A stretch of DNA of 64,000 nt. Source: Amphibalanus amphitrite. Lineage: Eukaryota > Arthropoda > Thecostraca > Balanomorpha > Balanidae. The position numbers and the translations under genes are program-made. A model generated the notes under the pieces. It did no database searches and had not been told where the DNA came from. It saw only the letters and a program-made list of their open reading frames with translations. The stretch's first letter is position 1. Every line of letters starts with the position of its first letter. Shown piece by piece: positions 1,044 to 64,000 of the stretch. The stretch is taken from assembly GCF_019059575.1 (NCBI RefSeq), contig NW_024881697.1:770964-834963 (forward strand), in the 5' to 3' direction.

Positions 1044-1935
1044 TTAAAACCCTCGCATGTGTAGGGGGGGGGGGTCGGATGGACCACCCCCCATGGTTTT
1101 TCGCGAATAACTCGCGTAAAAAGCGGCTGATCGCGATGAAACTTTCAGTACCCTCGCATTGATCAATTTTACACCTACCCTGAAAATTTCATGACCCTGA
1201 CCCAAATGACCTTTGACCTGTGACCTCTTTTCCGAGACCATGTTTGGCCGGAATCGCGATTTCGCGTATGTCGGCTCGCACTAGCCGCGTGTTTGCAAGC
1301 TTTTCGTGGTTTCAAACGTTCAAACATGTGATTTGATGTTACTCCCGTGTGTGTAAAGGTCACCTGAAGGTCAGGTCAGGTCATTGACCTTTGGTGACCT
1401 CGGGTGACCTCGGGTCACTTTTTCGAGTTTTACATGTTTCTAGGCTAGTTTTTGGAGCTGAATTCGAATTTAGCAACCATTTGAACATTTACGAAGTAGT
1501 TTTGGTGACTTCGTAACATGTTACGAAGCTGTCAGAGGCGGTTGACACGTACTACGAATACCCGTCACGACGCCTACTGGTTGACCTGACCTGACCTGAC
1601 CCGAACTGGTCTAAATGCTTCAAGACATCATCTGTGATCAAAACTAACACGATATTCGTGATCAGCACCCCGAAAAACCCCTTAGCAGCCAACTTTACGA
1701 CTTTCTAACAGGTCCCGATTTTCCCGACTTTGGGTCATTGACCTGACCTGGAAGGTCAACCAATGACCTAAGACCTTAAAATTGGGTATCATCGGCTTCC
1801 TCTCGTCACGGGCAGCACGCTCGTTTTTTCCGCGAAGCTCTAGCTCAATCAGGGGCCAAACGGCAAGGGGGGGGTCCAACCGACCCCCCCCTACACATTA
1901 GAAGCTGGCAAACGCCGCACACATGCAAGGGTTAA
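1044..1935 (+). mobile_element. TTAA-hairpin element TH1, copy 1
   Basis: Non-autonomous DNA element bounded by TTAA at 1044-1047 and 1932-1935. The left tip reads AACCCTCGC, then the tag ATGTGTA once, then a G-run/C-run hairpin (about 1062-1092). The right tip has the matching hairpin (about 1867-1892), then the tag twice (CTACACAT and CACACATG) before GGGTTAA. The interior has many AGGTCA/TGACCT hexamers and no coding capacity. An inverted copy lies at 36576-37480 and a relative at 10990-11739. TTAA duplication is the hallmark of piggyBac-type transposition; the superfamily assignment is inferred because no transposase is present. Confidence 0.8.
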
Positions 1936-2888
1936 CCCTCGCCCGCACATGCCATTTTCCCATCCTAGAACGCACATGGGGGGGGGGGGGTTGCCACCCC
2001 CCCGCGCCATTTCGTTCCTGTTGGAGATAGAGCTTAGCAGTAAAGACCAAAAAGATTCTTTGGGAAGAGACGAATCCAATGATACCCAGTTTTACCTTCT
2101 CAGGTCAGTCATTGACCTTCCAGGTCAGGTCAAACTAAAAAATGTTGCTGTTTTGGGTCACCGTTGGATATCAAGTGTGCTGCTTATCAAATACCGATGA
2201 CGATGCTGTTTTCTGGTGCCAAGCCAGCTAGAACCTCTTTGTCACACTACCCGACCAGAACTTTGCTGCTGAGGTCATTTCAGGTCAAGTTAGCTCAAGG
2301 TCAATTATATGTGTTTGTATGTCTGTGTGTGTCTGTGTGTATACTGATGTGTGCACCGATTGTTTTTGGGTCCATATTACATGAAATCATGATCTGAGAA
2401 GCTTTTACCAAAAATGCAGTCAAAAAACTTCAAAAAAAGTAAATTCAGCTAGCCTAAAACGCAATTATCTTAGATGACCTAGGTTGACCTTGACCCTGAC
2501 CTTGACCCCTGTACATCGTCGAACAACATGTTCCATGATAGGTGGGAGGTAAGACTGGCAAAAAAGGCCGAAATCAGGGTGTCAAAAGCTCATAAGGCCC
2601 ATGGCAAACGCAAGATGTTGAGAATTGGCCATTTGGGTCATGACATGACCTGAAAAACAAGGTCATATCTCCGAAACCAAAAATCACAGAAACTTGAAAT
2701 TTTCAGTGGACATCAAGAAAGGATAGAGGAGCAGCTATACGAAAAATCAGCCTTCTAGCTCTAAAAATGTTGAGTGCAGAGCAGAAAGACTACCTGGGGG
2801 TGGTGGCAAGGATTTTTGCCACCACCACCCCCAGCTATATGGGGGTGGTGGCAACCACCCCCCATGTGCGCCTGCGGGCGAGGGTTAA
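1932..2888 (+). mobile_element. TTAA-hairpin element TH2, copy 1
   Basis: Starts at the same TTAA (1932-1935) that ends the neighbouring TH1 copy and ends at TTAA 2885-2888. The left end carries the tag CGCACATG twice, at about 1943 and 1970, then a G-run with loop TTGCCA and a C-run. The right end has two GGGGGTGGTGGC-type hairpins (about 2797-2864) before GCGGGCGAGGG. A second copy at 32445-33348 confirms both limits. The interior carries AGGTCA hexamers and a TG-rich microsatellite at about 2308-2350. No protein is encoded. Confidence 0.8.
2308..2350 (+). repeat. TG-rich microsatellite inside TH2
   Basis: Degenerate GT/CTGT repeats lie within the TH2 element. The same stretch recurs in the second TH2 copy at about 32811-32860, so it predates dispersal of the family. 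Confidence 0.7.
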
Positions 2889-2982
2889 ACATCTGATATG
2901 CGATCGGGTTATGGCACAATTTTTCCCATTGGAGCTTTTTTCTAATACAGCAATACGAAAAGCGTTAGGTACATACATCGTC

Positions 2983-4862
2983 CACTGGGGCGTTCCACGA
3001 CAAATCGACAAATAAAAAATTAAATTTGCACCCTCATATTTTATTCTTCGTTGAAAACTGGTGTAAGGGGTTGTGATGGGCGGGGAAGCCAGCTGTGGCA
3101 AGGAATTTTTTTTCTTCGAAAAACGGTTTCCGAGATATAGCCTCGGGCAATTCCTGGAGTTCGCGCTGCAGCCCTATGTTTGGCGGCCTATAACTCAGAA
3201 ACTATTGTTTTTACGATAAAAACTTTATACGGTTCAACTCACAATCAACAAACAAACATTTTGGCTATCTCGGATTTTCAATTTTTGAAAATTTTAATCA
3301 CGTGACCTTTTGTCCTATTTTTCGAAGAGTGACCTTGATATTTTCCCCACTGAAAGTTGCAATTTTGTCTGATGACGATTAAAGCCTTATTGATTGTCAT
3401 TCATATGCGATAATAAACAAAGTGGTTATCGCCCTGCGTTGACCTCAGGTCAGGTCATTTTTATGACCTGTCCATTATTACGAGCGGGAGCGACAGCGAG
3501 ATCTCGAGAATAAAGCAAGATAGCGACAAGCGGTAAACGGTAAAGGGTACACACGGATAAGGTCTATAATTTTTACTGAGGTCATTTTCAGGTCAGGTCA
3601 AAGATGACGTCACACGAGCTAAAAGGAAGTCACAATAGCGGCACTATACACATATATGAAGTTTTTCTCGAATAACTTTCAAGGTATCCCAGCTAAGAAC
3701 AAACTAATAGCACCATCGTGATCCTCTCATCGATCCGCATCGAAACATATGTATGTTGACCTCGAAAGGTCGAAAGGTCAAAAGTTGACCTTAGATCACG
3801 TGACCTAGGGTCAACTTTTGACCTTTCGACCTTTCGAGGTCAACATACATATGATTCGATGCGGATCGACGAGAAGATCACGATGGTGCTATTAGTTTGT
3901 TCCTAGCTGGGATACCTTGAAAGTTATTCGAGAAAAACTTCATATATATGTATAGTGCCGCTATTGTGACTTCCTTTTAGCTCGTGTGACGTCATCTTTG
4001 ACCTGACCTGAAAATGACCTTAGTAAAAATTATAGACCTTATCCGTGTGTACCCTTTACCGTTTACCGCTTGTCGCTATCTTGCTTTATTCTCGAGATCT
4101 CGCTGTCGCTCCCGCTCGTAATAATGGACAGGTCATAAAAATGACCTGACCTGAGGTCAACGCAGGGCGATAACCACTTTGTTTATTATCGCATATGAAT
4201 GACAATCAATAAGGCTTTAATCGTCATCAGACAAAATTGCAACTTTCAGTGGGGAAAATATCAAGGTCACTCTTCGAAAAATAGGACAAAAGGTCACGTG
4301 ATCAAAATTTTCAAAAATTGAAAATCCGAGATAGCCAAATGTTTGTTGGTTGATTGTGAGTTGAACCATATAAAGTTTTTATCGTAAAAAAACAATAGTT
4401 TCTGAGTTATAGGCCGCCAAACATAGGGCTGCAGCGCGAACTCCAAGAATTGCCCGAGGCTATATCTCGGAAACCGTTGTTCGAAGAAAAAAATCCTTGC
4501 CACAGCTGGCTTCCCCGCCCATCACAACCCATTAGACCAATTTTAAGCAAAAAATAAAATATGAGGGTGCAGGGCACTTGTCGATTTGGCGTGGAACGCC
4601 CCCACTGGCGGATCCAGGGAGCGGGCATTTAAAGCAAATATTTACTCCCCCTCCCCCTGGACCCTGCATCGCCCGAAATAGACAAAACGAACCTTATGTT
4701 TCCTAATAATAACACTTTTATCAGGATTTTCTTTTTTGCTTTATGCTGTTCAGCAGTAAGGCCGTAAGGAATCGAAATCCGAGGAGATTTTGGATTTTGG
4801 ACACTTTTGTTGGGAGGTATGTCCCCTACAGCGTCGAAAACGCCTTTCTGGATCCGCCTATG
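2983..4862 (+). mobile_element. hAT-like MITE with GGCGGATCCAG ends, split by a foldback element
   Basis: The left terminus CACT (2983-2986) and the rest (GGCGGATCCAG, from 4607) are separated by the foldback element at 2987-4602 and its CACT duplication. Joined across the insert, the left end reads CACTGGCGGATCCAG. The right end, CTGGATCCGCCTATG, stops at 4862. Flanking 8-bp duplications ACATCGTC (2975-2982) and ACATCATC (4863-4870) match at 7 of 8 bases, as expected for hAT. The same TIR family occurs intact at 27030-27512. It is non-autonomous, with a body of about 260 bp. Confidence 0.75.
2987..4602 (+). mobile_element. Foldback element, about 1.6 kb, with GGGGCGTTCC ends and CACT target duplication
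   Basis: The two halves are near-complete inverted copies centred on CACGTG at 3797-3802, so a single strand could fold into a hairpin of about 800 bp. The tips read GGGGCGTTCCACG and its inverse, with CACT at 2983-2986 and 4603-4606. Similar tips (GGGGCATTCCACGTCAAATC) and 4-bp duplications mark the elements at 20500 and 38414. From about 3508 to the centre each arm closely follows the left half of the TH5 element at 17217-17545, including the motif GATAGCGACAAGCGGTAAAC. No coding region is present. The arms differ slightly, with a small indel near the tips. Confidence 0.85.
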
Positions 4863-4870
4863 ACATCATC

Positions 4871-6662: not shown

Positions 6663-6670
6663 CTAGGAAT

Positions 6671-6932: not shown

Positions 6933-6940
6933 CTAGGAAT

Positions 6941-7725: not shown

Positions 7726-9893
7726 TTAACCCGCGACCGCCTGGGGGGGTCGGATCCGACCCCCCCCCTCCGTTTTTCTTGAATAACTCATGAACTGCTT
7801 GCGCTATCAACTTGAAACTTCGCATACCTTCTCCCCCATCAATTTGACGTCTCCTGTGCAATTTTTGAAAAAAAAAAATTTCAAAAATTTCTGAGATATA
7901 TCGATTTTAGTGATGTAACTACATGGCGTTTTCAGTCAAAAAATGGTAAATGTTTAAAAAATCGCCAAAAATCGAGGTTTTAAGCAAATTGCAAATTAAG
8001 GACATGAAAAGACGCAGCTCAACGAGTTCTTTAAAATGGCTCTCTCGGATTTTCCATAAAATGCGTTTTACACCCCTAAAAATTCAAAAAACTATATTTT
8101 TTGGAAAACAGCTAATAAAATCCAAAATTTTGAGAATTTCCAAAAAACCGGAAAATATGTTATAGAGCTCTACTAGAACATTAGATGTCCCAAATTTCAA
8201 CTTTCTATCTTGATTTTTGACCCCCAAATTGTAAAAAATAGCTCCAACATGCATAGGGCATGGTGACGTCATAAGCATTTTCGCGAATTAGAGGCACTTC
8301 TGAACATCGCATGTGAAAACAAATGGCACCACTAGATTCCTGGGACAAAGCTCGTCTAGAAAAGTGCATTTTTATGTCAAAAATAAAAAGTTTAAAAATT
8401 GACCTTTTTTCTCAGCCCTCGTTTAGTATAAACGATTTTTTATGCTTTCAATGCACACTCATCACCAGCACAGTGACTTGGGGTCACATATAACCATTAC
8501 CATCGGATTTGGCGTGAAAAATAAGCCATAAAACATGTGTCGCACGCCCATGTAGCAGAAAGTGAAAACCGTGACCTTTCGTGACCTGACCTGACCTTGA
8601 CCCGTACTTAGTATGACCCCTATACGCACATGGTACCTTCACTAGGTCTTTGAGGTCATTTGTGGTGAGTTTCGAGCAGCAGCTATCGATTCCGCTGTCC
8701 GTAAGCCTAGGGGAGGACCGAACAAGAGTACGCACCTAATGCATTTTGTCGTCTCATGCCGTTCGGTTTTGGTTTACGGCTACGATCAGTATATTCCCAT
8801 AAAGCCTGATCATTTGTCCACAAACTGTCATGACCACAGCGGCCTACGTCCAATTTAAAGCATGACCGTAAGCAATTTTCTAACACCCTGCATTTGCGTA
8901 CTCTTGCCCGATAGGCAGTACAAGAGTACGCACTTCGTGTGGGTGGAGTACGCACTACGTGTATGCATTCCTACTCGCTGGAATCAATGCATTCATGCAA
9001 GTAATTAAACTATTGTTATCTTTATTGCCGCAGCCACTAAAACGGTCACTCTTAACAGAGTCGAGGCGCCCCGCTGTGGTCGTGCAAATGCCCCCTGGTC
9101 TACCAGAAACAGTGATGCTCTTCGTGGTTTCCCCAACTGCTCGGCGTCCCCCCGAGTGTCATCCACCTTGTTGGCCAATCCAGTGAATCTGCTGAGGGGT
9201 TGCGCGCCTGATACACTAAGTTGGATTAATGCAACACAAACACGCACTCGGAAAACTGCGTACTCTTGTCCGCCACGGCAATGCGTACTCATGGCAGACA
9301 CATACGGTAGACACAAAGCGGGCTGAGAGCTGGCGCCACAGTCGTCGCGTAAACAATTGGGACTTGGCACACGCACCAGATTCCCCGTGGTATCTTGATA
9401 GGAAAAAATGAAAATTCTATTGCCACTCCCTGAGGAATGTCACACCTTTTCCTGCACCCCAAAAAGTCTAAAAGCGATGTGAAAAACACGTCTAAGCCTC
9501 TAAAAAAGACAAGTGAACCCGTAGCGCGCCCACTTTCCACCATCGAAGCCGCGTGAGAGGCAGCTTCCTTAGGACTCGAGATGACACTGATGAGGCGTTG
9601 CTAAGCAACCGAAACAGCTGCTGCGTACTCTTGTCGTCTGCGTCTTCTTACCCGCCCTTACCCTAATCATGCAAAACCCCTGAATTTGACCTTTGACCTG
9701 ACCTTGACCCGAAAGTTGACCTCAATCTTAAAATCTTAAGAGTGCTTTGGGAAGGTCTCGTAGAGACCTTTCGAACGCCGCCTCGCGGGGCTCGATACGA
9801 CCATTGGTTCTCGAGATAACAGGGGGGGGGTCGGATCCGACCCCCCCCCAGGCTGATGTGGGTACGGAAATAGCCCAGGCGGTGCCGGGTTAA
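7726..9893 (+). mobile_element. TTAA-hairpin element TH3 with a nested insert
   Basis: TTAA at 7726-7729 and 9890-9893. The left end is CCCGCGACCGCCTGGG (tag once) followed by the self-complementary hairpin GGGGGTCGGATCCGACCCCC. The right end has the same hairpin, then the tag twice (CCAGGC at about 9849 and CCAGGCGGTGCC at about 9875) before GGGTTAA. Downstream of the left hairpin is the conserved TTTTTCTTGAATAACTC module, followed by a GAAACTT stretch and CATCAATTTGACG. The length is doubled by the element at 8722-9634. Confidence 0.75.
8722..9634 (+). mobile_element. Nested element with ACAAGAGTACGCA ends
   Basis: Inverted ends ACAAGAGTACGCA (8722) and TGCGTACTCTTGT (9634) lie inside TH3. 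GAGTACGC or its inverse recurs internally near 8896, 8921, 8946, 9257 and 9284, which looks like repeated terminal or binding motifs. No clear target duplication was found, so the limits rest on the inverted ends alone. The longest open frame (9005-9376 minus) has no recognisable domain. Confidence 0.5.
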
Positions 9894-10989: not shown

Positions 10990-11739
10990 TTAACCCTCGC
11001 CGGCACAGGCTATTTTGCATCCTTCGACGGCACAAGGGGGGTGGGGGTGGCACGACCCCCCCTCGCATTTGGCCCCTGATTGAGCTAGAGCTTCGCGGAA
11101 AAATCGAGCGTGTTGCCCGTCACGAGAGGAAGCCGATGATACCCAATTTTAAGGTTCTATGTCATCGGGTAACCTTCCAGGTCAGGTCAATGACCCGAAA
11201 ATCGGGAAAATGGGGACCTGTTAGAAAGTCGTAAAGTGTGGCTGCTATGGGGTTTTCCGGGGTGCTGATCACGAATATCGTGTTAGTTTTGATCAGAGAT
11301 GATGTCTTAAAGCATTTAGACCAGGTCGGGTCAGGTCAGGTCAGGTCAACCGGTAGGGGTCACGACGGGTATTCGTAATGCCTGTCATCCGCCTCTGACA
11401 GCTTCGTAACATGTTACGAAGGCACCAAAACTACTTCGTAAATGTTCAAATGGTTGCTAAATTCGAATTCAGCTCCAAAAGCTAGCGTAGAAACATGTAA
11501 AACTCGAAAAAGTGAACCGAGGTCACCAAAGGTCAATGACCTGACCTGACCTTCAGGTGATTCAGCTGGTGAAAGGTCATTTGGGTCAGGGTCATGAAAT
11601 TTTCAGGGTAGGTGTAAAATTTATCAATGCGAGGGTACTGAAAGTTTCGTCGGGATCGGCCGCTTTTTACGCGAGTTATTCGCGAAAAACCTTAGGTGGG
11701 GGGGTTGCATCAACCCTCCCTCCCTTTGCCGGCGAGGGA
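10990..11739 (-). mobile_element. TTAA-hairpin element TH4, relative of TH1, one end damaged
   Basis: The left end is TTAA (10990-10993) then CCCTCGC. The tag CCGGCACA occurs twice (about 11000 and 11026), then comes a G-run hairpin with loop TGGCACGA. The right end has GGTTGCATCAACC, GCCGGCGAGGG, then AGGT instead of TTAA, so the right target copy is lost. The interior follows TH1 (GAGCTAGAGCTTCGCGGAAA, AACATGTTACGAAG), inverted relative to 1044-1935. Confidence 0.7.
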
Positions 11740-12388: not shown

Positions 12389-12571
12389 TGTAGTTTCAGT
12401 GATGCTTTTCGATGCTAAGTGATGCTTTCCGCGATGCGAGTCGGATGGACTTCGCTCAGGCGGTGTCAGGTCGCTGCCGCCGGGGCCAAGCTGTGTCCGG
12501 GCAGGCGGTGAGTCAGTGAGCGAGATGGACTGACGGTGTGAGGGTGCGCGCTGAGGAATACAGAATCTACA
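12389..12571 (+). repeat. 5' LTR, 183 bp
   Basis: Begins TGTAGTTTCAG and ends GAATCTACA. By direct comparison it is identical base for base to the 3' LTR. It contains GATGCTTT repeats near the start. No canonical TATA box is obvious, so the transcription start cannot be placed. Confidence 0.95.
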
Positions 12572-12587
12572 AGCTATTTCGGCAATC

Positions 12588-13331
12588 ATGGCGAACTTCG
12601 ACTTGAAACTTATCCCGGAGTATGATGGCACTAGTGACTTTTCGTGTTGGTATGAGAAGGTGGAACTGGTGTGTGGCCTGCAAAAACCGGCAGTGGACTT
12701 GGCCGTGGTGGTGCCGTTGAGACTGACAGGGGGTGCCTCGGCTGTTTATCGCCAACTGAGTGAAGCCGACAAGGCGGACGCACGGAAAGTGAAGGCGGCT
12801 TTGCAGCGTGCGTTTGCAGTCGACAAATTCAAAGCCTACGAAGAGTTCCGAGATCGCCAGCTGCGGGTCGACGAGTCCGTCGATGTGTTTCTGGCGGACC
12901 TACAAAGACTGTCGTCGATCTTCGGCGGCATTAACGAAGAGGGATTGAGCTGCGCATTTGTGGCAGGACTGCCCGAGTCCGTGCGGCACGCTCTCCAGAC
13001 AGGCGCCCGCATGGAGTCCCTGTCTCTGTCGGAGATGGTGGACCGGGCCCGTGCTATCCTCTGTCGAGATAGCGTTCTGGGGGTAGCTGCAGCGGCAGAC
13101 CACCGCGGTCCGCGCCGTCAGGAAGCCACCGTTTGCTATGCGTGCGGACAGCCCAACCACTTGGCCCGCGATTGTCTTCGTGGTCGAGGTGGCCGTGGAC
13201 GTCGAGGTGGTTTGGGCGGAAGCAGGCTCTGCTTCCGGTGCAGCCGACCCGGCCACGTGGCAGCTACCTGCCCGGAAAACGGCGGCGGAGAGGTGGCCTC
13301 AGCGCCAGCCTCCTCTCCGGCTCACCAGTGA
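12588..13331 (+). CDS. gag: Gag polyprotein of the LTR retrotransposon
   Basis: This 247-residue protein would form the virus-like particle and package the element's RNA. Residues 1-160 are capsid-like, with the retrotransposon Gag signature (KAALQRAFAVDKFKAYEEF around 68-86). Two CCHC zinc knuckles follow: CYACGQPNHLARDC at 183-196 and CFRCSRPGHVAATC at 215-228, joined by a Gly/Arg-rich linker typical of nucleocapsid. The start ATG at 12588 is only 16 bp past the LTR. It overlaps the pol frame by about 200 bp, with pol in the -1 frame, so a -1 ribosomal shift within 13133-13331 is likely. No textbook slippery heptamer was identified with confidence. Confidence 0.93.
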   Translation: MANFDLKLIPEYDGTSDFSCWYEKVELVCGLQKPAVDLAVVVPLRLTGGASAVYRQLSEADKADARKVKAALQRAFAVDKFKAYEEFRDRQLRVDESVDVFLADLQRLSSIFGGINEEGLSCAFVAGLPESVRHALQTGARMESLSLSEMVDRARAILCRDSVLGVAAAADHRGPRRQEATVCYACGQPNHLARDCLRGRGGRGRRGGLGGSRLCFRCSRPGHVAATCPENGGGEVASAPASSPAHQ

Positions 13332-16300
13332 GTGGCGCTCTGCCGACCACGCGCCTGTCGGTGGACGGAGTGATGTGTCGAGCCCTCGTGGATACCGGAT
13401 GCACCGTGAGCGTCGCGCACTCCTCCGTTTGCCGCCGCTGGTCTGCGGAGCGAATCAACGTTGTGACACTGAGTGGAGAACGATACGCATGCGAAGGCAG
13501 AGGTTACGTGTCAGTGCAGACCATGTTTGGTGCTCGAGTTGAGTTGGAAGTGCTGGTGTCTGCTAGAAAGCCTTTGAACTTTTCATTCATTCTGGGAATG
13601 AACGGTGTGACTGCTCTGCAGGGCGTGTTCGTTAGTGCATCCAGTGAAGTGAACTTTGGAGTGGACTCAGCTGTGCCGGCCGCTCCAGTTGCAGCGGCTG
13701 CCAGTGGCGTCTCGGATGGAGCAGCCTCATCGCTGCATCCGGGCTGCAATGAGACGGCGGCGCAACCCGAACCGACACCGACCGACCTGCACCCGGACCG
13801 GGCACCAGTTGTGGATGCACCAGATTATGCCGTGTACTTTGATCCGACATCTAAGGCGTGGAGAATGAAATGGAAGTGGACTGACGGAGCAGAGCCGGAG
13901 TGCTTGCAGAACACTGTCGCACAGTACAGGGTGCCGTGTGACGCTCGCCGTGAATTTGACGATGAACTCAAACGTTGGGTGGAGCAGGGCTGGCTTATTC
14001 CCTACAACGAGTCAGAACTTGGCCCACCAAAGGGTCTGGTGCCTTTAATGGCAGTCCAACAAAAGAACAAATCGAAAGTGAGACCTGTGCTTGACTATCG
14101 TGAACTGAACAACTACTTGACAGCTCACACAGCTGACGCAGACGTCTGTGCGGACCAACTGAGGAAGTGGCGACGACATGGCGAAAACGTTGCGGTCGTA
14201 GATCTACGTCACGCGTATTTGCAGATTCAGGTTGACCGCCAGCTGTGGCCGTTTCAGACGGTGATGATCGAAAACCAGAGACATTGTTTGACACGGCTCG
14301 GTTATGGATTGTGCGTGGCTCCGCTCGTCATGAAGGCGGTGATTCGGACGGTTCTGGAACGTGACGCGGACGTAAACCGGGCAGTGCTTCCGTACGTGGA
14401 CGATCTGCTGGTGAACGAGGACATTGTTAGCGCAGAGCGAGTGGTGGCTCATCTGGCGAACTTTGGTCTCGAGTGCAAGCCTCCAGAGCGGGCAGCAGGC
14501 GGTGCGCGTCTGCTCGGTCTGCGAGTCTCACGGGAGCTTGGCAGGCTGGTGTGGAGCAGAGACAACCCAGTCGGACCACCACCGGCTGTGCTCACGCGCC
14601 GTGGAGTGTTCTCGTGGTGCGGACGCCTGATCGCTCACATGCCCGTGTGTGGTTGGCTCCGCCCTGCCGTGGCCTGGCTGAAACGACGCGTGAATGACGT
14701 CACACAAGGATGGGATGACATCACCTACAACGGAGTTCTGCAGAAGCAGATTAGTCATGTCGCGGCTCGGGTAGCCAGTCACGATCCGGCACACGGTCTG
14801 TGGAGCGTGCGGAGCGACCGCGCTGTGGTTTGGGTGGATGCGAGCTCCGTAGCAGCGGGTGTGGTGGTGGAGTCACCTGACGGCGACGTCATTGAAGACG
14901 GATGCTGGCTGAGGAAGGATGAATCCACACACATAAATGTTGCGGAGCTAAATGCGGCCGTGAGAGGCATCAACGTGGCCGTCGCTTGGGACATGCGTGT
15001 CATCGATCTGCGCACGGACTCGGTCACAGTGCACCGTTGGATCAACGATGCATTGAGCGGCCGCACTCGGCTGCGCACCAAGGCACACGGAGAGATGTTG
15101 ATCAGACGCAGGGTCGACATGATTCGACAGCTGGTGGATGAGCTCGAGCTGTCGCTGTCTGTAACTCTGGTGCGGAGCGCAGCGAATCAAGCAGACGAGC
15201 TGACCCGAGTGCCGAAAGACTGGGTGCGTGATGAGTCATCGCCTGCAGCTACTGAGACAATGGCCGGCTGCGAGGCTGCGGCCAATGGGCTGGCATTGCC
15301 TAACTCTGATGACGATTCATCGGGTTCGGCAGTGCTGAGAGGAGGCGATCAAGTCGCAGCTGCAGGTGGTAGCAGCGCTGAGGTGGATCGGATGACGCCG
15401 CGGGGAGACTCGGCCGGCGCGGCAGAGGACCGGACGGAGGATCAGCTTGCACCAGGAGGCTCTGCTGATATTGCGGAGGCCATCGCAGGAGTGCATGACC
15501 GCGCCGGACATCCCGGGGTTCGTCGGACACTGTACTTTGCACGGCGTGACATTTCAAAGGACGTGACGCGAGCTCAAGTGCAAAATGTGGTGAGCCAGTG
15601 TGACGCATGCCGCTCAATCGATCCGGCGCCAATGAAGTGGAGGCATGGCTCGTTGGAAGTGTCTGACGTATGGAAGCGACTGGCAATTGATGTAACGCAC
15701 TACCGGGGCCAGTCGTTTCTCTCGGTTGTGGACTGTGGACCCTCGCGGTTCTGTCTGTGGCGACACCTGAGTCGTCCGGACGCTGATGTCACGATCGCTC
15801 AGCTCGAACAGATCTTCTTCGAGCGCGGGGCACCTGAGGAGCTGCTTTGTGATAATGACACCATCTTTCGCAGTCGGAGTTTTGCGGCTTTTGCAGCGAG
15901 GTGGGGCGTGCGTCTTCGATTTAGGGCGGTTCATGAGCCGGCTGGCAATTCGATAGTTGAGCGGAACCATCGCACGATCAAGGTCATTGCTGCGCGAAAA
16001 CAATGCTCGGTGGCCGAGGCAGTCCACTTGTACAATGTAACGCCGCGCGAGGGTGGATCTGCACCCGCGAGTGTCGTGTTCCGGTACAATGTGAGGGACA
16101 ATGTGCGGCCCGCTGCTGCACCGCCGGCGCCCAACCCCGTACCAGTGAACAGTGAGGCAGCCGCGTATCGTGTTGGCGACCCTGTCTGGGTACGTCGTCG
16201 GGGAACTCGGTGTGTTGATGCGTCGCGTCCCGGCACGGTGTCTGATGTCGTTTCTGAGCAGGTCGTAGAAGTCGATGGAGTGCCGTGGCACGTGAGAAAT

Positions 16301-16546
16301 TTACGCCGACGGAATGCCGCCGTCGAGGAGGGGCCCGTTAGTGAGGGCGACAGTGAGGGAGAGAGGGACGGTGAGAGTCTGGTCATTACTGTGCCGGTGG
16401 TGAATGATGCGGGCTCAGAGGGGAACAGTGGGCCGGAAGTCGTGGAGGGAGAGTCAGCTGAGATTGTGGGCGAGGAGGAGCGACAGATTCCACGTAGAAG
16501 CGAGCGGGAACGTAGACAGGCCCAGTATTTCCAATCGATGTGTTGA
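13133..16546 (+). CDS. pol: Pol polyprotein (protease, reverse transcriptase, RNase H, integrase)
   Basis: This 1137-codon frame copies the element's RNA and inserts the DNA. Visible domains: aspartic protease with ALVDTGCTVS at about 84-93; reverse transcriptase with RPVLDYRELN (317-326), VVDLRHAYLQIQ (355-366) and YVDDLL (421-426); RNase H with WVDAS (567), E605 and D629. The integrase has an HHCC zinc region (HDRAGHPG, CDAC at 823-826). Its catalytic residues are the Asp of AIDVTHY (853), CDNDT (907) and the Glu of IVERNH (about 944), all intact. The tail is acidic. The first ATG is arbitrary, because the product is probably made as Gag-Pol by a -1 frameshift; residues before about 60 read through the gag overlap. 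Which Gypsy lineage it belongs to I cannot say. No stops or frameshifts are seen. Confidence 0.95.
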   Translation: MLCVRTAQPLGPRLSSWSRWPWTSRWFGRKQALLPVQPTRPRGSYLPGKRRRRGGLSASLLSGSPVSGALPTTRLSVDGVMCRALVDTGCTVSVAHSSVCRRWSAERINVVTLSGERYACEGRGYVSVQTMFGARVELEVLVSARKPLNFSFILGMNGVTALQGVFVSASSEVNFGVDSAVPAAPVAAAASGVSDGAASSLHPGCNETAAQPEPTPTDLHPDRAPVVDAPDYAVYFDPTSKAWRMKWKWTDGAEPECLQNTVAQYRVPCDARREFDDELKRWVEQGWLIPYNESELGPPKGLVPLMAVQQKNKSKVRPVLDYRELNNYLTAHTADADVCADQLRKWRRHGENVAVVDLRHAYLQIQVDRQLWPFQTVMIENQRHCLTRLGYGLCVAPLVMKAVIRTVLERDADVNRAVLPYVDDLLVNEDIVSAERVVAHLANFGLECKPPERAAGGARLLGLRVSRELGRLVWSRDNPVGPPPAVLTRRGVFSWCGRLIAHMPVCGWLRPAVAWLKRRVNDVTQGWDDITYNGVLQKQISHVAARVASHDPAHGLWSVRSDRAVVWVDASSVAAGVVVESPDGDVIEDGCWLRKDESTHINVAELNAAVRGINVAVAWDMRVIDLRTDSVTVHRWINDALSGRTRLRTKAHGEMLIRRRVDMIRQLVDELELSLSVTLVRSAANQADELTRVPKDWVRDESSPAATETMAGCEAAANGLALPNSDDDSSGSAVLRGGDQVAAAGGSSAEVDRMTPRGDSAGAAEDRTEDQLAPGGSADIAEAIAGVHDRAGHPGVRRTLYFARRDISKDVTRAQVQNVVSQCDACRSIDPAPMKWRHGSLEVSDVWKRLAIDVTHYRGQSFLSVVDCGPSRFCLWRHLSRPDADVTIAQLEQIFFERGAPEELLCDNDTIFRSRSFAAFAARWGVRLRFRAVHEPAGNSIVERNHRTIKVIAARKQCSVAEAVHLYNVTPREGGSAPASVVFRYNVRDNVRPAAAPPAPNPVPVNSEAAAYRVGDPVWVRRRGTRCVDASRPGTVSDVVSEQVVEVDGVPWHVRNLRRRNAAVEEGPVSEGDSEGERDGESLVITVPVVNDAGSEGNSGPEVVEGESAEIVGEEERQIPRRSERERRQAQYFQSMC

Positions 16547-19049: not shown

Positions 19050-19883
19050 ACGCAGGCGAGTAGCAGGGCTCTTTCACCTCTGCTAATTGCTAGCCTCGCG
19101 GAAAAAAACGAGCGCTTGCGTCGTTACGTGACGCAGTGACTGTCACCCCATTTTAAAATATCAGTGACCTCTTAGGGCAGGTCAAGGGTCCCAAGGCATT
19201 GGATCGGTTTTTGGTGAATAACTTCGCAAAAAAGGTCGCATTATCGTCATTTCGATACAATCGTGTTTTCTGTTCTCAGACGCGTCGATTTATATGCTTT
19301 TTTGCTTAGGTGTAGGATGTTTAGGTCAATGTCATGTTAGGGCAGCACAGGTCACGAAGCTGTTGAAAGGAGGACATGCTGCATAACATTTGATTCGACC
19401 AGTCTTGCAGAGTCCATTGATGGCTGTCCCGACTGACTAGCTCATTTTGATCGGGAGTTATTGACGAGCACTCCTATTGACGAGCACTCCGTCACGCAAG
19501 GTGAACAATGCAAAAGTGAAGCATTAAACCTTGCCAAGAATGTATGAAGTCACGATTTCATATGCGTGATGTATAGTTTTAGCTCATTTCCGACGCCAAA
19601 TTAACAGTTTCCATATTTTCCCATTGTGCTTATATGACACTAAGTGCATTACGGATTTGCAGCATTTTATAACCGACAACCGTGCAGTCTGCAGAGGTTT
19701 ACTTAAGACGTCACAGTTAAGTGACCTGACATGAAAACGTGGTTGATTTCAAATGATCCGGCTTGAATCAAATGTAAGGCATATGAAATGTCAGCCTTCT
19801 ATCATCAGTGTGCTTTGAGCTACCGCAAAAAAAAAATACATGGTGGCGGCACCCACCCCTTCTTCTCGGCCGGCGAGGGTTAA
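19050..19883 (-). mobile_element. Degenerate TTAA-hairpin element (TH15 family), only one end recognised
   Basis: The right end, CTTCTCGGCCGGCGAGGG then TTAA (19880-19883), matches the left end of the element at 54237 (CCCTCGTCGGCCGAGAAG). The interior has the TH1-like CCTCGCGGAAAAAAACGAGC and several AGGTCA hexamers. The left end is not recognisable, so the start is approximate. Confidence 0.5.
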
Positions 19884-52280: not shown

Positions 52281-53216
52281 TGCATACGACGGGAATAAAG
52301 TTAAATACTTTAAGGACAAGACAACTTTTTCAACTCATTTACAGGTAAATGACGTCACGGTGACGTCATCGGCTGCCCGAACATTGCAAAACTTCAGCTT
52401 TCAATTACGCCATATGTTTTTAGCACAGGGTCAAAATATCAAAACAATATCTCAAATATCAACGACGCTACACTGCAATTCATTAAAAGGGTACCATTCT
52501 CCAAAAAAGATGAACCACGCACTTGCACGTGCTCTGGAAGTGGTGCAACATTAGTTAGAGGTGCGCACCGGTCAGATTCGGGTTCAGCGGTCATTTTTGT
52601 CCCAGAAACCACCCTCTGCTAAGCTCTACCCAATTTTGCGTTATTCGGCCCAAAATTGGGCCTCCTTCCCCTGACTAATATGTCTTGAGAAAGTTTGAAG
52701 CACATGTCTGATAATTCCCTGATTTCGGTATCTAGTTGGTATTTCCCCCCTATTTCTGAAAATCGGTTCGGTTTTGGTATACTCTCAGTGGGTTTGGTCG
52801 GTATCGGTTTGGTATTGGTTTCCAAAATTTCTGAAATTGACATCACTAACCCTTGGTGACCTGACCTGTGACGTGACCTGGTATTGTCAGTGACCTCTAA
52901 TAGCAACATATCTACTAGGCAACTGACGCCCTATCGCTGATTCTCGACAAAATGCGTTTTCCTCGGTGTTATAGCGCATTCCCTAGAAGACCCGTGAACG
53001 GTGAAACATTTAATCTTTGACCTGACCTGTGACGTCATCGGTGACCCCGAGGTCAATGAAATTTGGTTTCCTTCGACAAATTTGACAGGCCTTTCGAACG
53101 CCGTTTGAATTTTGCGGATCCGTCCAGTAGTTTCGGAGATACGAGGGGGGGGCAAAAAATAGCCCCCCCCCCCACCAGGTCGCGTTATAAACAGACCCCA
53201 CCAGGGCACGGGTTAA

Positions 53217-54236: not shown

Positions 54237-55480
54237 TCGGCCGAGAAGGGGTGGGGCGGGTGCCGCCTCATAGGGCTTTTCGCGATAGCTTAACCCTCGC
54301 CCGTAAACGGCGATCTGCCACCTTCGCCCATGCAGGGGGGGGGGGGTGGTGCGACCCCCCCTTGGCGTTTGAAAATGGAGCGTCGTAGAGCTTAGCGGAA
54401 AAGACCAACGGATTGCTCTCGCCGAGATCTCGCGATTGGTGGTATATTTTTTGGTCCTAGGTCAACATTTGACCTACTTTTGACCGGTCAAAGGTCAAAT
54501 TTTCGGAAAAATAGACTTTTTCAAATTTTCCGCGGCGATTGCGGCAAAACGGTGGGAGATATCGACTTGAAACCTTCACTATCGTGTTCCTTGATCAATT
54601 CTCTATCGTTTGGTATGTATTTCGTTTCCCTAGCTCTAAAAATGGCGCGTTGGGAGGGCCGGAAGTCGGCAAGGTCACAGTCGGCGGCAGAAATTCGAAA
54701 AATCAAAATTTAAATTTTTGAAGTCTGATTGTATTTTTGGATTTGGGATGTCCATTGGCTCCCTATAGAAGCTAATATTGCTGCATATTCCCATTGAGGT
54801 GACAAGAATTAGCAAAATAGTGGTTCGGGCGCTTTTCAAAAATAGTACCGGACGCTGTTCCTCTTGTGACGTCATAGCTCCGTGACCTGACCTGACCCGG
54901 TCAAGTTTCTTATACCATATGATAGCCAATACTTGCCCCAACATGCATGGGAAGTTTCATCACGATCCATCAACCGATGTCCGTACCACCGGCAGGAAAC
55001 CTCGGGCGTTGGCACTCAGTTTGTGAAAATCCGGCCGGAGGCTTTTCCCTTTGTGACGTCATAACTCCGTGACCTGACATGACCCAGTCAAATTTTTTTT
55101 TATCAAAAGATGCGCAAGGTTTGCCCCATAAGGTACCCAAAATTTGGCGGCGCTGCGCGCCGCCGTTTTTGCACTATTTCTGAAAAACCTCAGGGGGGGG
55201 GGTTGCACCAACCCCCCCCCCCTACATGGGCGAGGGTTAAAACTCGCTAAGGGTAGAGAGCTGAAACTTGGCATACCTAATCTTTTATTCAAGCTGGATC
55301 TTTTGACCTCAACTGCGTTTTCAGGTCAGGTCAAGTCACTGACCTATGACGTCATAAATAAACCTCTGGGAGGTCCTCAGATGTTGCAACTTTGCAACGC
55401 CCTCAGTGCCAGAGGAACTTTCACAGGAAGATGAAAGTTACAGGACGTAGTATCCTTCTGAGGTCTCACAACTTGTATAG
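54237..55480 (+). mobile_element. TTAA-hairpin element TH15, split by TH14, right end missing
   Basis: The left end is TTAA (54237) CCCTCGTCGGCCGAGAAG with a GGGCGGGTGCCGCC hairpin. It then has TTTTCGCGATAGC, interrupted at TTAA (54300) by TH14. After TH14 the module resumes (TTAAAACTCGCTAAGG, then GCTGAAACTTGG). The right terminus is not recognised; the end is approximate. Confidence 0.6.
54300..55240 (+). mobile_element. TTAA-hairpin element TH14, nested in TH15
   Basis: TTAA 54300-54303 and 55237-55240. The left end has CGCCCGTAAACGG and, after a spacer, TTCGCCCATGCAGG, then hairpin GGGGTGGTGCGACCCC. The right end has GGGGTTGCACCAACCCC and CTACATGGGCGAGGG. Inside the right hairpin is GGCGGCGCTGCGCGCCGCC, also seen in TH6. 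Confidence 0.83.
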
Positions 55481-55937: not shown

Positions 55938-57132
55938 ATAACCCGCGCCCTGGTGTGGGTCTGAGCCACCTTCGCCCTGGTGGGGGGGGGGGGGCCAAAA
56001 TGACCCCCCCCGTCTAACTCGAAAACGAAGAGGGCTAGGAAGACGCGGAAAAAAGCAAACGAAAGCCCATAACAAGTACGTTCGAAAGTATTTCGGTCAT
56101 TTTTTCGCTAAGGTCAATATTGAGGTCGCTAGAGGTCATCATAGGTCAAATTTCAGTGTTTTCGGTGTTGCCGGACATATTCCGCTGTAGCTCGGAAACT
56201 AGAAGAGCTAGAGAGCCGCGGAAAAAAGCAATCGATAGCTCTTTTCAAGCTCTTTCGCCAAGGTTCGTCAGATTTGACCTCAGCTCAACGGTTTGGCCTA
56301 CAGAGGTCATGCAAGGTCAACTTGGCAAATTTCGTTGAAAATGTTTTTAACTATAGCATGCATTCACGAGAAAATAGAGAAACGATTCATGCACCATCGT
56401 GCTTGGCTCGTCGAGACGCGTCGAATGATATATAGTTTGACCTCGAAAGGTCATTTTGAAAATTTGACCTCAGGTCAAGGTCATGACCTTACCGAAATAG
56501 GTCATGCTGCATATCATTCGATCCGCATTGACGAGACAAACACGATAAACGTCGAACGGAGTCTCTATCTCTATTCAATAACAAGTAAGTGCAGAAAAAC
56601 CGCTGGTGACCTCTGGTGACCAGGGAGATGACCTAGCGTGACCTCAGCGAGGTCACAAGCAAATGGTTTCACATGGGCTGTGATTTGCTGACCCAAGACA
56701 CTTCAATAACGAAATATAGGAACAATCACGCCCGATTTAGCTGAAAAACAACTACTTTTCGATTCTCCCATTGACTTATAATGGGGAGCAGCGATGACCT
56801 GACCTGACCTTAGGTCACATTTATAAAAAATCCGAGATAGCCATTTTGTAGAGCTGGGTGACATCTTCAAGTACTGTAAATTTTACATCGATCGGATAAA
56901 AGCTGTGCCTTTGAGAGAGCTTTGAACTTTTTTAGAGGTGGTGTCAGTTTTGGTGACCTTGTGACCTGACCTGACCTGACCCGAACCCCCCAAAAAAGGA
57001 CATGATGTAAAAATGTTGAATAAACAGCTATACAAAGTTTCAGGGCGCTAACTCAAGTGGTTTCTGAGTTATCGCTGAAAAACCACAGGGGGGGGGGCCA
57101 AAATGGCCCCCCCCCACCAGGGCGAAGGATAA
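55938..57132 (+). mobile_element. TTAA-hairpin element TH9, flanked by ATAA
   Basis: The target copies are ATAA at both ends (55938-55941 and 57129-57132). The left end has tag CGCCCTGGTG twice, then GGGGCCAAAATGACCCC. The right end has GGGGCCAAAATGGCCCC and CACCAGGGCG once. The core CTCGTCGAGACGCGTCGAAT (about 56408) faces ATCATTCGATCCGCATTGAC (about 56511), with several AGGTCA hexamers between. Non-autonomous. Confidence 0.83.
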
Positions 57133-59321: not shown

Positions 59322-61799
59322 TCACATCCTGTTCATTAGATCTATGAGTACAGGCACAGTAGACTTTTTATACCGCTCAGTTTTGGCCCGCGGTACGACA
59401 AACTTTCGCTGCCGGCGCAGAGGGCGCCTCACATTTGCCAGCTGCTCGCCCGGGTACAGTGGGTGGGCGGGGTTGGCGAGGATGTCGGCCGCCAGCTTGC
59501 AGAGGACAGCATCGCGACGCTCACTAAGAGTCTCGAGGTTGAGGAGCTGGCAGGCAGAGGCGTAGTCGGTGTAGTTTTCGTATCCTATCATGATTTTGCA
59601 AGCTCTTTTCTGAACTTGCTCGATTGCTTGTGCTTGTTGCTGTGTCAGTCCCGTGTGCCACAGTTGAGAGCAGTATTCCAGACATGGACGAATGAAGCTG
59701 ATGTAGACGGCGCGGATATCGCTCAGATCTGCATGGAACTGACGGAGGACTGTGAGCATGAACAGCCTGCGAGAGGCGTTTTTTGTGATATGATTTGTAT
59801 TTGCCGTCCACTTTAAGTCAGAAGTAATATGGACTCCGAGAAGTTTCATGGTAGAGACGACAGGTACTGGTTCGTTGTTAATGATTACTGTGCCGTCCAT
59901 ATCCGTGTTGTGAGAGAAGTTGCAGATGAGTATATGACACTTTTTTCCGTTGATCTTCATGAGATTGTTCTCTGACCATGTTTCCAGAGTGGATGCGGCC
60001 GTCTGGGCTTTCTGAAGGACAATGTTTGCATCTCTTGCAGGAGACAGGATGCCGATACTGAGGTCGTCCACATACTTCCACCGATGATCTTCGGTAACTG
60101 CGCAGTCATTTATATGAGCCAAAAATGCAATCGGGGCGATTTTTGTCCCTTGGGGCGTTCCACACGTGGTAGTGAGCTCTGATGAGACAGGATTCGAGCC
60201 ACCAAGTCGAACGACCTGTTTCCGCTCGTTGAGGAAGCTGGCTACTGTAGGCACGATGGAGGGACGAACTTGCTGGTCCAGTAGTTTCCTGAGCACGACA
60301 TCATGGCTAACCAGGTCGAAGGCCTTGGAAAAATCGATCGCCAGGATGGCCGCAGCGTTTGAAGAGCTGTCTGTGTTCTTAGCCAGGAAGTCATATAGCG
60401 AGATCAGGTAATGTACCGTAGAGTAGCCTGGCCTGTTTCCGAACTGGTGTGGGTCAAGTGATGGGGTAATGTCAGCCATGATCCAGGTTGTCAAAAATCC
60501 TTCAAAGATTTTGGAGAAGAGCGGGGTGAGTGAAATGGGTCTAAGATCGTTGAAAGAGGTTGGAGGGTTGACCTTGGGAATGGGGGTGATGAAGGATAGC
60601 TTCCAAGCAGACGGAAATTTTCCGGAGGATAGCGAGGAGTTGAAGATGTGAGTGAGTGGCTGCGATAATTCGAAGGCAAACTCCTTGACCAGCCATGCTG
60701 GTAGCTCATTCGGTGTGGTGGAGATGTTGGAGCGGATGCTGCTCAGTTCCCTCTGGACGTCAGCTCGTCGGATGACCGGTGGGGGTGCGTCCGCCGGTAG
60801 GTAGGCAGGGAATTCCTCCAGGTTGAGTGCCGGCAGCTGGGATGAGATAGATGCGAAGTGCTGGTTGACCGCTTCCGCCAGCGCCCCACCAGTCTCATAC
60901 TCAGCGAAGTTTAGCTGTTCGTTCTTTACTCGGCCGGTCAGACTCTTGATTTGACGGTACCAAGTAGCCGGCTTTGCTGTCCTCATTCCTCGTATTTTCC
61001 TGTCGTAGAATTCCGCCTTGGCTTTGCGGCACAGATGAGTGGCCTTATTTCGTAGATGTCGCCACCGGTCGGACATGCCCTCGAGTCGGAAAACTCTGTG
61101 CTTCTGGGCAATGGCGTGTCGGACGGTGGCGGTGATGTGAGGCTTCCCTCGATGTCGCACTGGCAATGTCTTGGTAGGCAGAAACCGGTCTAGAGCAGTG
61201 GAGAGCGTTGACTGCAGCACCGCCACCTGTTCATCGGGGGAAGACGCCTCATATACGGGGGTCCAGTCATGTGCTGTGATCCACCTGCCGAATGCTCTAA
61301 CTCCCGAGTCCGGCAGCATTCGCACGGTCGTTCGTTCCCTCGGTGTCGGCTGGATGGTGCGCGGTCGAGCGTGCACGATGACGTGCTTGGAGCGCCCGAG
61401 GGGCGACAGCATCACAGGCTCGTGATAATAGTCACCCAGATCGGTCAGGATGAGGTCCAGAACTGAGTCCCCGTGCGTGGGGGCTGTTACAATTTGATGC
61501 AAACCATTGAGCCGGCAGAGGGACTCAACTGGAAAGCTGTTGAAATCACCGCAGATGATAAATCGAGGGCAGTCATACAGGGTACGGAGCTCATCAATGG
61601 CGAACTGAAGGTGCTCCTCATATTTCACTCGCAGCTCTGCACACGAGCCTGGTGGGAAGTAGACTGTGGCGATGCAGATATTAGATGAACCTGCCGGAAG
61701 GTGTTTAGGCCGTAATTGAAGCCATATCACTTCAACGTCTTCCTCAGAGGGTTGGAGGCTATTCAGTAGCTTCACTAATTCATTGATTATATAACCCAT
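59322..61799 (-). CDS. Endonuclease/reverse transcriptase of a 5'-truncated CR1-like non-LTR retrotransposon
   Basis: The 825-codon frame on the minus strand would nick target DNA and copy element RNA. It opens in the second half of the APE-type endonuclease: CGDFNS (88-93), DLILTD (115-120) and SKHVIV at 137-142, where SDH is expected. RT blocks follow: LRPISLTPLFSKIFE (about 419-433), AIDFSKAFDLVSH with catalytic Asp (487-499), CGTPQGTKIAP (546-556) and YVDDLS (576-581). A C-terminal block is also present. The frame reads upstream without a Met to a stop near 61857, so the N-terminal half of the endonuclease is missing. No internal stops are seen, which suggests recent insertion. The 3' UTR runs to the (TATG)n tail at 59170. 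Confidence 0.92.
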   Translation of the reverse strand: MGYIINELVKLLNSLQPSEEDVEVIWLQLRPKHLPAGSSNICIATVYFPPGSCAELRVKYEEHLQFAIDELRTLYDCPRFIICGDFNSFPVESLCRLNGLHQIVTAPTHGDSVLDLILTDLGDYYHEPVMLSPLGRSKHVIVHARPRTIQPTPRERTTVRMLPDSGVRAFGRWITAHDWTPVYEASSPDEQVAVLQSTLSTALDRFLPTKTLPVRHRGKPHITATVRHAIAQKHRVFRLEGMSDRWRHLRNKATHLCRKAKAEFYDRKIRGMRTAKPATWYRQIKSLTGRVKNEQLNFAEYETGGALAEAVNQHFASISSQLPALNLEEFPAYLPADAPPPVIRRADVQRELSSIRSNISTTPNELPAWLVKEFAFELSQPLTHIFNSSLSSGKFPSAWKLSFITPIPKVNPPTSFNDLRPISLTPLFSKIFEGFLTTWIMADITPSLDPHQFGNRPGYSTVHYLISLYDFLAKNTDSSSNAAAILAIDFSKAFDLVSHDVVLRKLLDQQVRPSIVPTVASFLNERKQVVRLGGSNPVSSELTTTCGTPQGTKIAPIAFLAHINDCAVTEDHRWKYVDDLSIGILSPARDANIVLQKAQTAASTLETWSENNLMKINGKKCHILICNFSHNTDMDGTVIINNEPVPVVSTMKLLGVHITSDLKWTANTNHITKNASRRLFMLTVLRQFHADLSDIRAVYISFIRPCLEYCSQLWHTGLTQQQAQAIEQVQKRACKIMIGYENYTDYASACQLLNLETLSERRDAVLCKLAADILANPAHPLYPGEQLANVRRPLRRQRKFVVPRAKTERYKKSTVPVLIDLMNRM

Positions 61800-61859
61800 C
61801 AGTATTTCGTTTCTTGTCAGCGCAAGCCTTTGAGCAATAACTGATGCCAGTCATGGTTT

Positions 61860-62109: not shown

Positions 62110-62400
62110 TATGCCTATCAAGAAGTTGGTAGGTCCACAAGGCCCAAACTAGTACTCAACAAGGTGACGCCTATGCGAATTGGAACCAAACTTGTAGACA
62201 AACTGTTTATAGTTTGTTGGCCAACAAGCCTGGGGTTGGTGAATCGACAAGGTATCGACAAGGTGACGCCTATGCGAATTGGAACCAAACTTGTAGACAA
62301 ACTGTTATTTTGTTGGCCAACAAGCCTGGGGCTGGTAAATCGGCAAGGTATCGACAAGGTGACGCCTATGCAAATTGGAACCAAACTTGTAACAAGGAGT
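62110..62400 (+). repeat. Tandem repeat, about three units of 90-105 bp
   Basis: Units contain CAACAAGGTGACGCCTATGC, AATTGGAACCAAACTTGTAG, GTTGGCCAACAAGCCTGGGG and ATCGRCAAGG. Starts lie near 62155, 62257 and 62352, and a degenerate unit precedes at 62085. Short frames through it are repeat artefacts. Confidence 0.8.
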
Positions 62401-62566
62401 CAACTTGTAGATTTGGTTTACAGTGCAGTCAAAACTCCAAAGCAGCGCTGAGTGATGATGGAAACATGACGGTCCCAGCTCAGGGTGCTGTCAAAGTACA
62501 AACCGAGATTTTTTGTTTCTGGCACAGGGGTCAAAATGTGATCGCGGAATGTTACAGTTACGTTGT

Positions 62567-64000
62567 TTAACCCGCGCGGGGCTGGGGTCTCCAGCCGAAC
62601 GCGCGGGGCTGGGGGGGGGGGGTAAATTTTACCCCCCCCTGTTATCTCCCGAACTAATGGTCCGATTTGGAAAATTCAAACGCCAATCGAAAGATCTCAT
62701 CACGAACAACTAAAAACATGTACTTAATATTAAGTTTGAGGTCAAGGTCAAGGTCAGGTCAAGGGTACAAATTGCAAGTTCCTACAGTATCGGCCTTGCA
62801 CCGTAGTTGCCGAAGAATGGAGTCATGGACTGAGACTGATCGCCCAAAACGTGTTCTTAGGCTACCAAGACAATATTCGTTGCATACAATATCATTCAGA
62901 GGCCAAGGTCAAGGTCAGGTCAGGTCAGGTCAGGTCACCAAAAACAAAATATAGAAAAGGGCATGTGCGACACATGTTTCATGGGTAATTTTACTCATAT
63001 AATTCAATAGGCACACTCAATAAGTGATATGGACCACCTCTGGATGAATTTCAGGTCAAGGTCAGGTCAAGGTCAGGTCAAGTGAGGTCAAATTTGAAGT
63101 TGGTTGTTAACCCTCGCGGGCCCGGGGGGGCGTTTTTCGCCCCCCCTGGCGAATATTTGCGATAACTCCCGAACGCTTAGGGATAGGAAGGCGAAACTTT
63201 CAGTACCTTTTCCCCATCAATTTGACATCTTCTGAAGTAAAAAATTTGGACCTAACCCCCTTGATGACGTCACAAGGTCCAATTTTCTAGACCCCTGCAC
63301 GGCAAAAATCGGCGTCACAGACGCAAACTTCAAATAGCTGCTAAAAATAGAGTATTAGAGATAAAGATAATTACGCAGCGGCTGTATAGCGTTTGACCTA
63401 GAGAAAATAGAAAAATAGTTTTGGTGACCTGAGGTCAGAGGTCAGGTCAACGACCCCGAAATGTGGTTTTAGTTTTTCGCAAATAACTTCGACAAAATGG
63501 TCCTAGAGCTACGGCATGGTACCATCGCATTCGCCTTGTCAGCCGCGTCGAATGATATATATTTTGTTCGGAAAGGTCACGTTTCATGTTGCCTCATGTG
63601 ACCTCGAATGACCTCTGGTTGACCTTGACACATGAAAGGTCGTTTATGATGGATTTGTACCCGCTGATCACGAATCTGGCACCTATTTTTCCTCTAAGCC
63701 TTCATTTAGAGCTTCCAGATGCAAAATTGTCATATTTATTATTCTACTTGAATCAGTGAAATAGCCTCTAGCAGGATACTCTTCTGTGACCTTGACCTTT
63801 GAGCAGCCTTGTATCGTAGATGAACCACAATAGGGAACTGATAAGCCTCAAAACATTTTAAAACATCTTGGAAGTTAGCACGCAAGATGTGAAAAATGCC
63901 AAGTTTGGGTCAATTTTGGCGTGACCTTGACCTTGACCTTTGATTTGGAGCACATTTTCAGAATCCTCAGATTCTCTTCTTTCGTTTGACACCCAATTTG
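62567..64000 (+). mobile_element. TTAA-hairpin element TH13, right end outside the window
   Basis: TTAA (62567-62570) then CCCGCGCGGGGCTGGGG. The tag is repeated after TCTCCAGCCGAA (CGCGCGGGGCTGG), then hairpin GGGGTAAATTTTACCCC. Dense AGGTCA arrays follow at 62740-62762, 62915-62937 and 63053-63090. The element is interrupted by TH12 at 63107 or ends unseen. Its right end is not in the window. Confidence 0.65.
63107..64000 (+). mobile_element. TTAA-hairpin element TH12, partial at window end
   Basis: TTAA (63107-63110) CCCTCGCGGGCCC then hairpin GGGGGGCGTTTTTCGCCCCC. The conserved module follows (GATAACTCCCGAAC, GAAACTTTCAGTACC, CATCAATTTGACATC). The core GCCGCGTCGAATGATATATA is at about 63541. 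No right end before 64000. Confidence 0.7.

Follow-up and report, generated by a model that had tools for sequence, protein, structure and literature searches.

The stretch analyzed here, referred to below as the window, comprises 64,000 nucleotides of the barnacle Amphibalanus amphitrite (NCBI RefSeq assembly GCF_019059575.1, contig NW_024881697.1, positions 770,964 to 834,963 of the forward strand) and contains numerous elements that are bounded by TTAA. An initial annotation, made from the letters alone, described a family of such elements with the tip TTAACCC(T/G)CGC, whose two ends carry a matched tag and a hairpin that change together between subfamilies. The family is real: with at most one mismatch, the tip is found 31 times in the window, compared to a mean of 1.57 and a maximum of 7 in shuffled sequence, and the exact tip is found 90,832 times in the genome (45,339 + 45,493 in 807.5 Mb), compared to 734 (373 + 361) for the reversed pattern. 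The tags and palindrome cores named earlier are present as well. TTAA, which itself forms part of the search pattern, stands at both tips of the elements; the bases following TTAACCC differ in some subfamilies (TATT, TAGA, GGCA, GCGA). Tips read CCCT or CCCG, and the motif CC(C/T)T, as given in the portion of PMC2872659 consulted, leaves CCCG uncovered.

The ends are of two types: (i) end B, in which the tip is followed by a tag of 6-8 bases, a G-run, a core of about 8-10 bases and a C-run; (ii) end A, in which the tip and the tag are followed by about 20 bases and a second copy of the tag, and only then by the G-run, core and C-run. The two tag copies of end A lie about 27 bp apart, and end A is longer than end B by about the same amount (26-28 bp in 16 of 17 subfamilies, 23 bp in the remaining one). 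All 26 facing pairs of ends (300-1400 bp apart, with the end type left unforced) consist of one A and one B. Exact-tip ends on the forward strand of the genome number 18,759 (A) and 16,508 (B), with reversed-pattern controls of 0; the reverse-strand counts (77,835 A and 65,286 B) are inflated, single places being listed several times in that direction. Doubling of the forward counts gives an estimate of 33,000-37,500 intact ends of each type. Elements and ends in the window are as follows.

1044-1935, minus strand: element of the ATGTGTA subfamily; A end at 1935; the tip of the B end (1044) is altered
1932-2888, plus strand: element, CCGCACAT subfamily; A end at 1932, B end at 2888; TTAA at 1932-1935 common with its neighbor
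7726-9893, minus strand: element, CCGCCT tag, TCGGATCCGA core; B end at 7726, A end at 9893
10990-11061, plus strand: A end of a CGGCACA element; no partner found
17147-18154, plus strand: element TH5, ACCGAC tag, cores CGGATGACCG / CGGATATCCG
19840-19883, minus strand: B end, CGGCCGA-like tag; no partner found
27599-28644, plus strand: element TH6, CCTGGCA tag, TCGATGCGA core at both ends
29329-30494, plus strand: element, CGGGCC tag, TGT(C/T)TGAACA core
32445-33348, plus strand: element, CCGCACAT subfamily
36576-37480, plus strand: element, ATGTGTA tag, TCGG(T/A)TGGA core; interior shared at 94.8% identity with a CGGCACA element (L025), outer modules unrelated
40551-40625, plus strand: A end of a TH5 (ACCGAC) element; no partner found
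41628-41675, plus strand: B end of a TH10 element (CCTGGTG, CTATTTTTTG); no true partner found
43296-44177, minus strand: element, AGTGGCA tag, tip TTAACCCTATT
44778-45975, plus strand: element, CCTGCT tag, TGTTTGAACA core
46906-47954, minus strand: element TH6; B end at 46906, A end at 47954
53140-53216, minus strand: A end of a TH10 element; no partner found
54290-55240, plus strand: element, CCATG(C/T)A tag; interior 81-87% identical to full-length L069, outer module different
55938-57132, plus strand: element TH9, internal-deletion derivative of L076+L077, junction at about 56620/56621
62567-62642, plus strand: A end of a GGGGCT / TAAATTTTA element; no partner found
63107-63152, plus strand: B end, GGGCCC tag, CGTTTTTCG core; no partner found

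The element at 7726-9893 measures 2.17 kb, about twice the usual length of the family. A truncated B end with a CGGCCGA-like tag lies at 54227, directly ahead of the A end at 54290, and a sequence resembling a degenerate B end, TTAGCACGCGCAGTG(A/G)AGGGGGAAGAGCG..., followed by a B-type flank, occurs at 21817 and 39732 and at position 562 of locus L060. Back-to-back tips or tip-like sequences with one common TTAA are found in the window (1932/1935, 19880/19883, 55237/55240) and in fetched loci (L016 2387/2390, L021 2679/2682, L069 215/218, L072 4128/4131). Such sharing is frequent and looks as if one element had inserted into the TTAA of another.

Matching of tags and cores between the two ends

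We compared the ends within and between 17 subfamilies, which were curated by hand from the window and from fetched loci. From 37 pair rows, three wrong pairs (40551-45975 and 41628-44177 in the window, and L028 1483) and two duplicates (L017, L022) were removed; the subfamilies were built from the 32 remaining rows and a hand-added L076 row. The CGGCAC core pair is drawn from two copies (A core from L020, B core from L025), manual correction was made to the CCGCAC and CCATGT cores, which the script had clipped, and in subfamily L002 the second tag does not match. The core score is the better of the direct and the reverse-complement comparison.

The ends of a subfamily carry matched codes, and they covary far beyond permutation. 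The identity of the first tag copy of end A to its own B tag is 0.92, compared to 0.41 for the B tags of other subfamilies; the corresponding values are 0.88 and 0.38 for the second copy, and 0.72 and 0.01 for the core score. In each case none of 20,000 permutations was as high, although the subfamilies are mutually related and the permutation thus does not run across independent lineages. The own partner is the best or tied for 15/17 first tags, 16/17 second tags and 13/17 cores. Both ends were thus correctly described as sharing a tag and a core, but they are asymmetric, the tag being present twice in A and once in B. Likewise, the loops, which had been called complementary, do match; however, they are mostly the same sequence read outward at both ends, i.e., an ordinary inverted repeat, and the loops of one element are occasionally non-identical, for example CGGATGACCG / CGGATATCCG.

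The match ends at the C-run. Over the 45 bases that follow it, the two ends of the same element have an identity of 0.377, compared to 0.381 for ends of different elements and 0.352 for shuffles, while across subfamilies there is resemblance between flanks of the same end type (0.485 for A, 0.538 for B). The flanks are therefore end-specific, and the tag and core are code-specific. No correlation between tag and core was detected between subfamilies (r = 0.07; 413 of 2000 permutations as high); the two look independent of each other, with little statistical power.

Full-length relatives and their transposases

A search of the genome for PF13843 gave 232 candidates and 116 scored matches, one clade of which sits between ends of the type described above. 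Two families of full-length, transposase-encoding relatives were found. In L069 (215-4185), a B end and an A end flank a 646-aa open reading frame (ORF). Both ends are also present in its copies L062, L070 and L072; in L071 only the A end is seen. L076+L077 (C33:447032-451754, 4,723 bp) has a 645-aa ORF between its A end and its B end. The TH9 element of the window keeps positions 2-681 (99.4%) and 4213-4723 (98.8%) of L076+L077 and is thus an internal deletion of an autonomous-type element with the ends kept. TH9 is the only element that we would call a miniature inverted-repeat transposable element (MITE) by this origin.

Three ORFs (L069, L076, L065) match PF13843. The blocks TIDE/TVDE, T(M/A)DR and GGVD, with the catalytic aspartates, align with Trichoplusia ni piggyBac. 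Two of the three ORFs were aligned to the T. ni piggyBac structures 6x67/6x68 (1.2e-56 and 2e-78), and the alignments of the L069 and L076 transposases to 6x67 extend, at the sequence level, through the last Cys of the C-terminal domain. In five lineages the transposase gene is faced by a B end located 1.3-1.7 kb upstream, with the following tags and cores: L069, ACGCCTA/TTGTATCAA; L076, CCTGGT/CCATTTTGG; C702, CCCGTT/CCAATTTG; C552, GTTGCT/CGTTAAACG; C919, CCCGTA/CGAAACGG. In all five the gene points away from the B end, and in the two lineages with both ends it is read from B towards A. Identity to the C702 protein over the aligned parts is 39% (C33), 39% (C527), 47% (C552) and 59% (C919). 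Over about half of its length, the L076 transposase matches two annotated A. amphitrite proteins at 98%.

Since full-length elements with such ends encode PF13843 transposases, we consider the family, with a probability of about 0.93, to consist of piggyBac-superfamily transposons of the complex-end kind, i.e., with the layout of T. ni piggyBac, and mostly of non-autonomous copies mobilized in trans. In the portions of the T. ni literature consulted, the cysteine-rich domain (CRD) has its site in a palindromic internal repeat of 19 bp that both ends carry, and it binds one palindrome as a dimer; the right end RE63 is 28 bp longer than the left end LE35, one segment being duplicated and 17 bp inserted; and the transposase core does most of the binding of a motif that lies outside the palindrome (PMC11707139). 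End B is the counterpart of the left end and end A that of the right end, with the tag duplicated and about 20 bp inserted, and the tag and palindrome lie at the places where the transposase core and the CRD bind in T. ni piggyBac. The transposase would cut at TTAA and reinsert at TTAA. Each transposase lineage would have its own tag and core, and an element would need this code at three tag sites and in both palindromes to be mobile. The annotation had proposed a recognition code in diversified versions that keeps the two ends of an element paired. The diversified versions are consistent with the location of the tag and palindrome and with the five lineages having five B ends. As to the pairing, the ends do match, but there is a simpler reading: we infer that they covary because each code fits one transposase that demands it at both ends, and not through a direct end-to-end interaction.

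Several observations weigh against this view. The clade members C412 and C778 have no B end in the stretches fetched, the 794 bp searched at C702 contain no A end, and C171 yielded an A end only; C702, C552 and C919 are known from the B end alone. In addition, an in-frame stop interrupts the C919 gene, C552 has a short frame, and for most of the window's subfamilies no full-length relative was identified. The T. ni palindrome is not known to have poly-G arms whose length varies. Finally, a control of 29 loci gave one facing B end (L050, a nested gene), but this control has little weight because its reach of 1.5 kb stops short of the distance at which the clade has its B ends. A further control supports the link between ends and transposases: none of nine other piggyBac loci outside the clade shows a facing B end 5' of the gene, and at five of these the sequence read extends 1.8-2.2 kb from the domain match, far enough to cover the 1.7-2.1 kb at which such ends lie in the clade.

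The genome contains other piggyBac families, and different TTAACCC tips bound 18 of the first 30 piggyBac loci. One of these families (L044-L054), with a 604-aa frame, TTAACCCATTAGTGCCC tips and a length of about 2.68 kb, is probably a recently active family, since its copies on several contigs are 99.4-100% identical. L050 was considered as a full-length partner and rejected, since the transposase there belongs to a nested element of 2.68 kb whose tips are different. Young families with TTAACCCATTAGTGCCC tips were likewise rejected as drivers, because their ends differ and their loci are absent among the scored relatives of the C702 transposase. Kolobok, which also uses TTAA, was ruled out by the PF13843 piggyBac transposases of the full-length elements.

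Interiors and turnover of the outer modules

The interiors are rich in AGGTCA/TGACCT, the nuclear-receptor half-site: across the 13 paired elements of the window (14,317 bp) it occurs 187 times (13.1/kb, compared to 3.0/kb outside) and ranks first among 180 anagrams, the median of which is 5. In the full-length elements L076 and L069 it is limited to the noncoding parts (6-13/kb, compared to 0-0.5/kb in the ORF). The repeats are frequently spaced by 4 or overlap by 1. By eye, a large inverted repeat (foldback) at about 2985-4605 of the window, with arms of several hundred bases, also bears AGGTCA, and long ORFs at 12555-16546, 34307-35869 and 59322-61850 resemble gag-pol of long terminal repeat (LTR) retroelements and the reverse transcriptase of long interspersed nuclear elements (LINEs).

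Over 28 representatives of end A, the similarity of the outer module is correlated with that of the inner part (Mantel test, r = 0.43; none of 2000 permutations reached this value). There are exceptions. The ATGTGT element at 36576-37480 and the CGGCAC element of L025 are identical at 717 of 756 aligned bases of the interior, but at only 10 of 33 positions of the A outer module, and their B tags also differ; in terms of similarity, the inner value for ATGTGT/CGGCAC is 0.85-0.89 and the outer value 0.33-0.36, close to the background of 0.36 (standard deviation 0.06). For CCATGT and L062, the inner similarity is 0.89 and the outer similarity 0.41, compared to the same background. Furthermore, the CGGCAC outer module is nearest to CCGCAC (0.68-0.69), whereas its interior is nearest to ATGTGT (0.85-0.89). 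The simplest history suggested by these few cases is the transfer of an interior into a different set of outer modules, the breaks lying in the G/C runs. A single replacement of this kind would leave both ends matched.

A further-reaching model, less likely than not, is one of combinatorial addressing, in which several related piggyBac transposases each read their own tag and core and the interiors swap between outer modules. A pool of interiors would change its address by replacement of the whole interior, e.g., through gap repair after excision; both switch points would fall in the poly-G/poly-C palindromes common to all subfamilies, and one replacement event would yield a new element whose ends already match. 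It is also conceivable, although doubtful, that the outer modules change by fast adaptive substitution that tracks a changing transposase, not by recombination. Partial half-site changes in the cores (TCGGTTGGA / TCGGATGGA) and the non-identical A and B tags of full-length L069 are in line with such substitution, whereas the CCGCAC-like outer module and ATGTGT-like interior of CGGCAC point to a chimera. Plain inheritance, i.e., one founder per subfamily with ends that matched by chance and codes that drift without selection for fit to the transposase, is improbable. The copies of a subfamily are near-clonal, and the overall correlation of outer and inner similarity is expected under this scenario; however, drift alone should alter the flanks equally fast, so that near-identical interiors with unrelated modules, as in ATGTGT/CGGCAC (with tags that differ at both ends) and L062/CCATGT, count against it.

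The annotation hinted at single-strand transposition. The strong palindromes that adjoin the tips speak for such a mechanism, whether IS200/IS605-like or other, but we give it hardly any credence: the full-length elements encode PF13843 piggyBac transposases, the tips are TTAA, and the palindrome, given the layout shared with T. ni and the alignment of L069 and L076 to 6x67 through the CRD, is best read as the expected double-stranded dimer site of this domain, for which no single-strand hairpin is needed. An artefact of poly-G slippage with no real matching can be dismissed too, because the non-homopolymer cores and tags match between ends, even though slippage itself is real, G arms of 5 to 25 and C arms of 4 to 13 varying independently of each other (r = 0.03; 93 ends).

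Comparison with known systems

TTAA together with a hairpin had appeared unfamiliar, but the ends of T. ni piggyBac are known to be built in this way; what is new is the many matched codes with identified transposases, and their turnover. In the open-licence literature searched, we found no description of piggyBac in barnacles, nor of matched code versions, the transposases of the five B ends or the turnover. The system bears on an open question, namely how a transposase and its binding sites change jointly when each mobile copy must change at several sites. One genome supplies tens of thousands of ends, many codes and five transposase lineages with five B ends, and near-identical interiors with different codes are available as natural comparison pairs. 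In this family it would be possible to test directly which palindrome is read by each CRD, and mutually non-interfering piggyBac pairs for laboratory use could be drawn from it.

The coral CMITEs (piggyBac-type MITEs) are, in the text examined, similar TTAA MITE families with interiors more conserved than the terminal inverted repeats (TIRs), and one family has TIRs in common with a piggyBac-like transposon. That text mentions no matched tag-palindrome codes, and internal deletion can be read directly from the barnacle TH9 element. The piggyBat transposon of Myotis lucifugus, as far as the part of its description consulted goes, has no palindrome at the right end and a CRD that is folded differently; two of the barnacle proteins align to piggyBat chain 9c0f only to about residue 460-473 of 578.

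The closest system is T. ni piggyBac (LE35/RE63; PDB 6x67, 6x68), with its TTAA tips, asymmetric ends, duplicated segment, offset of about 28 bp, palindromic internal repeat (bound there by a CRD dimer) and a transposase with a C-terminal CRD that can be aligned over its length. The CCC start of the tip is common to both. The barnacle family differs from it in the arms of its palindrome, which are G/C runs of variable length, in the many versions of the code within one genome, and in a copy number of tens of thousands.

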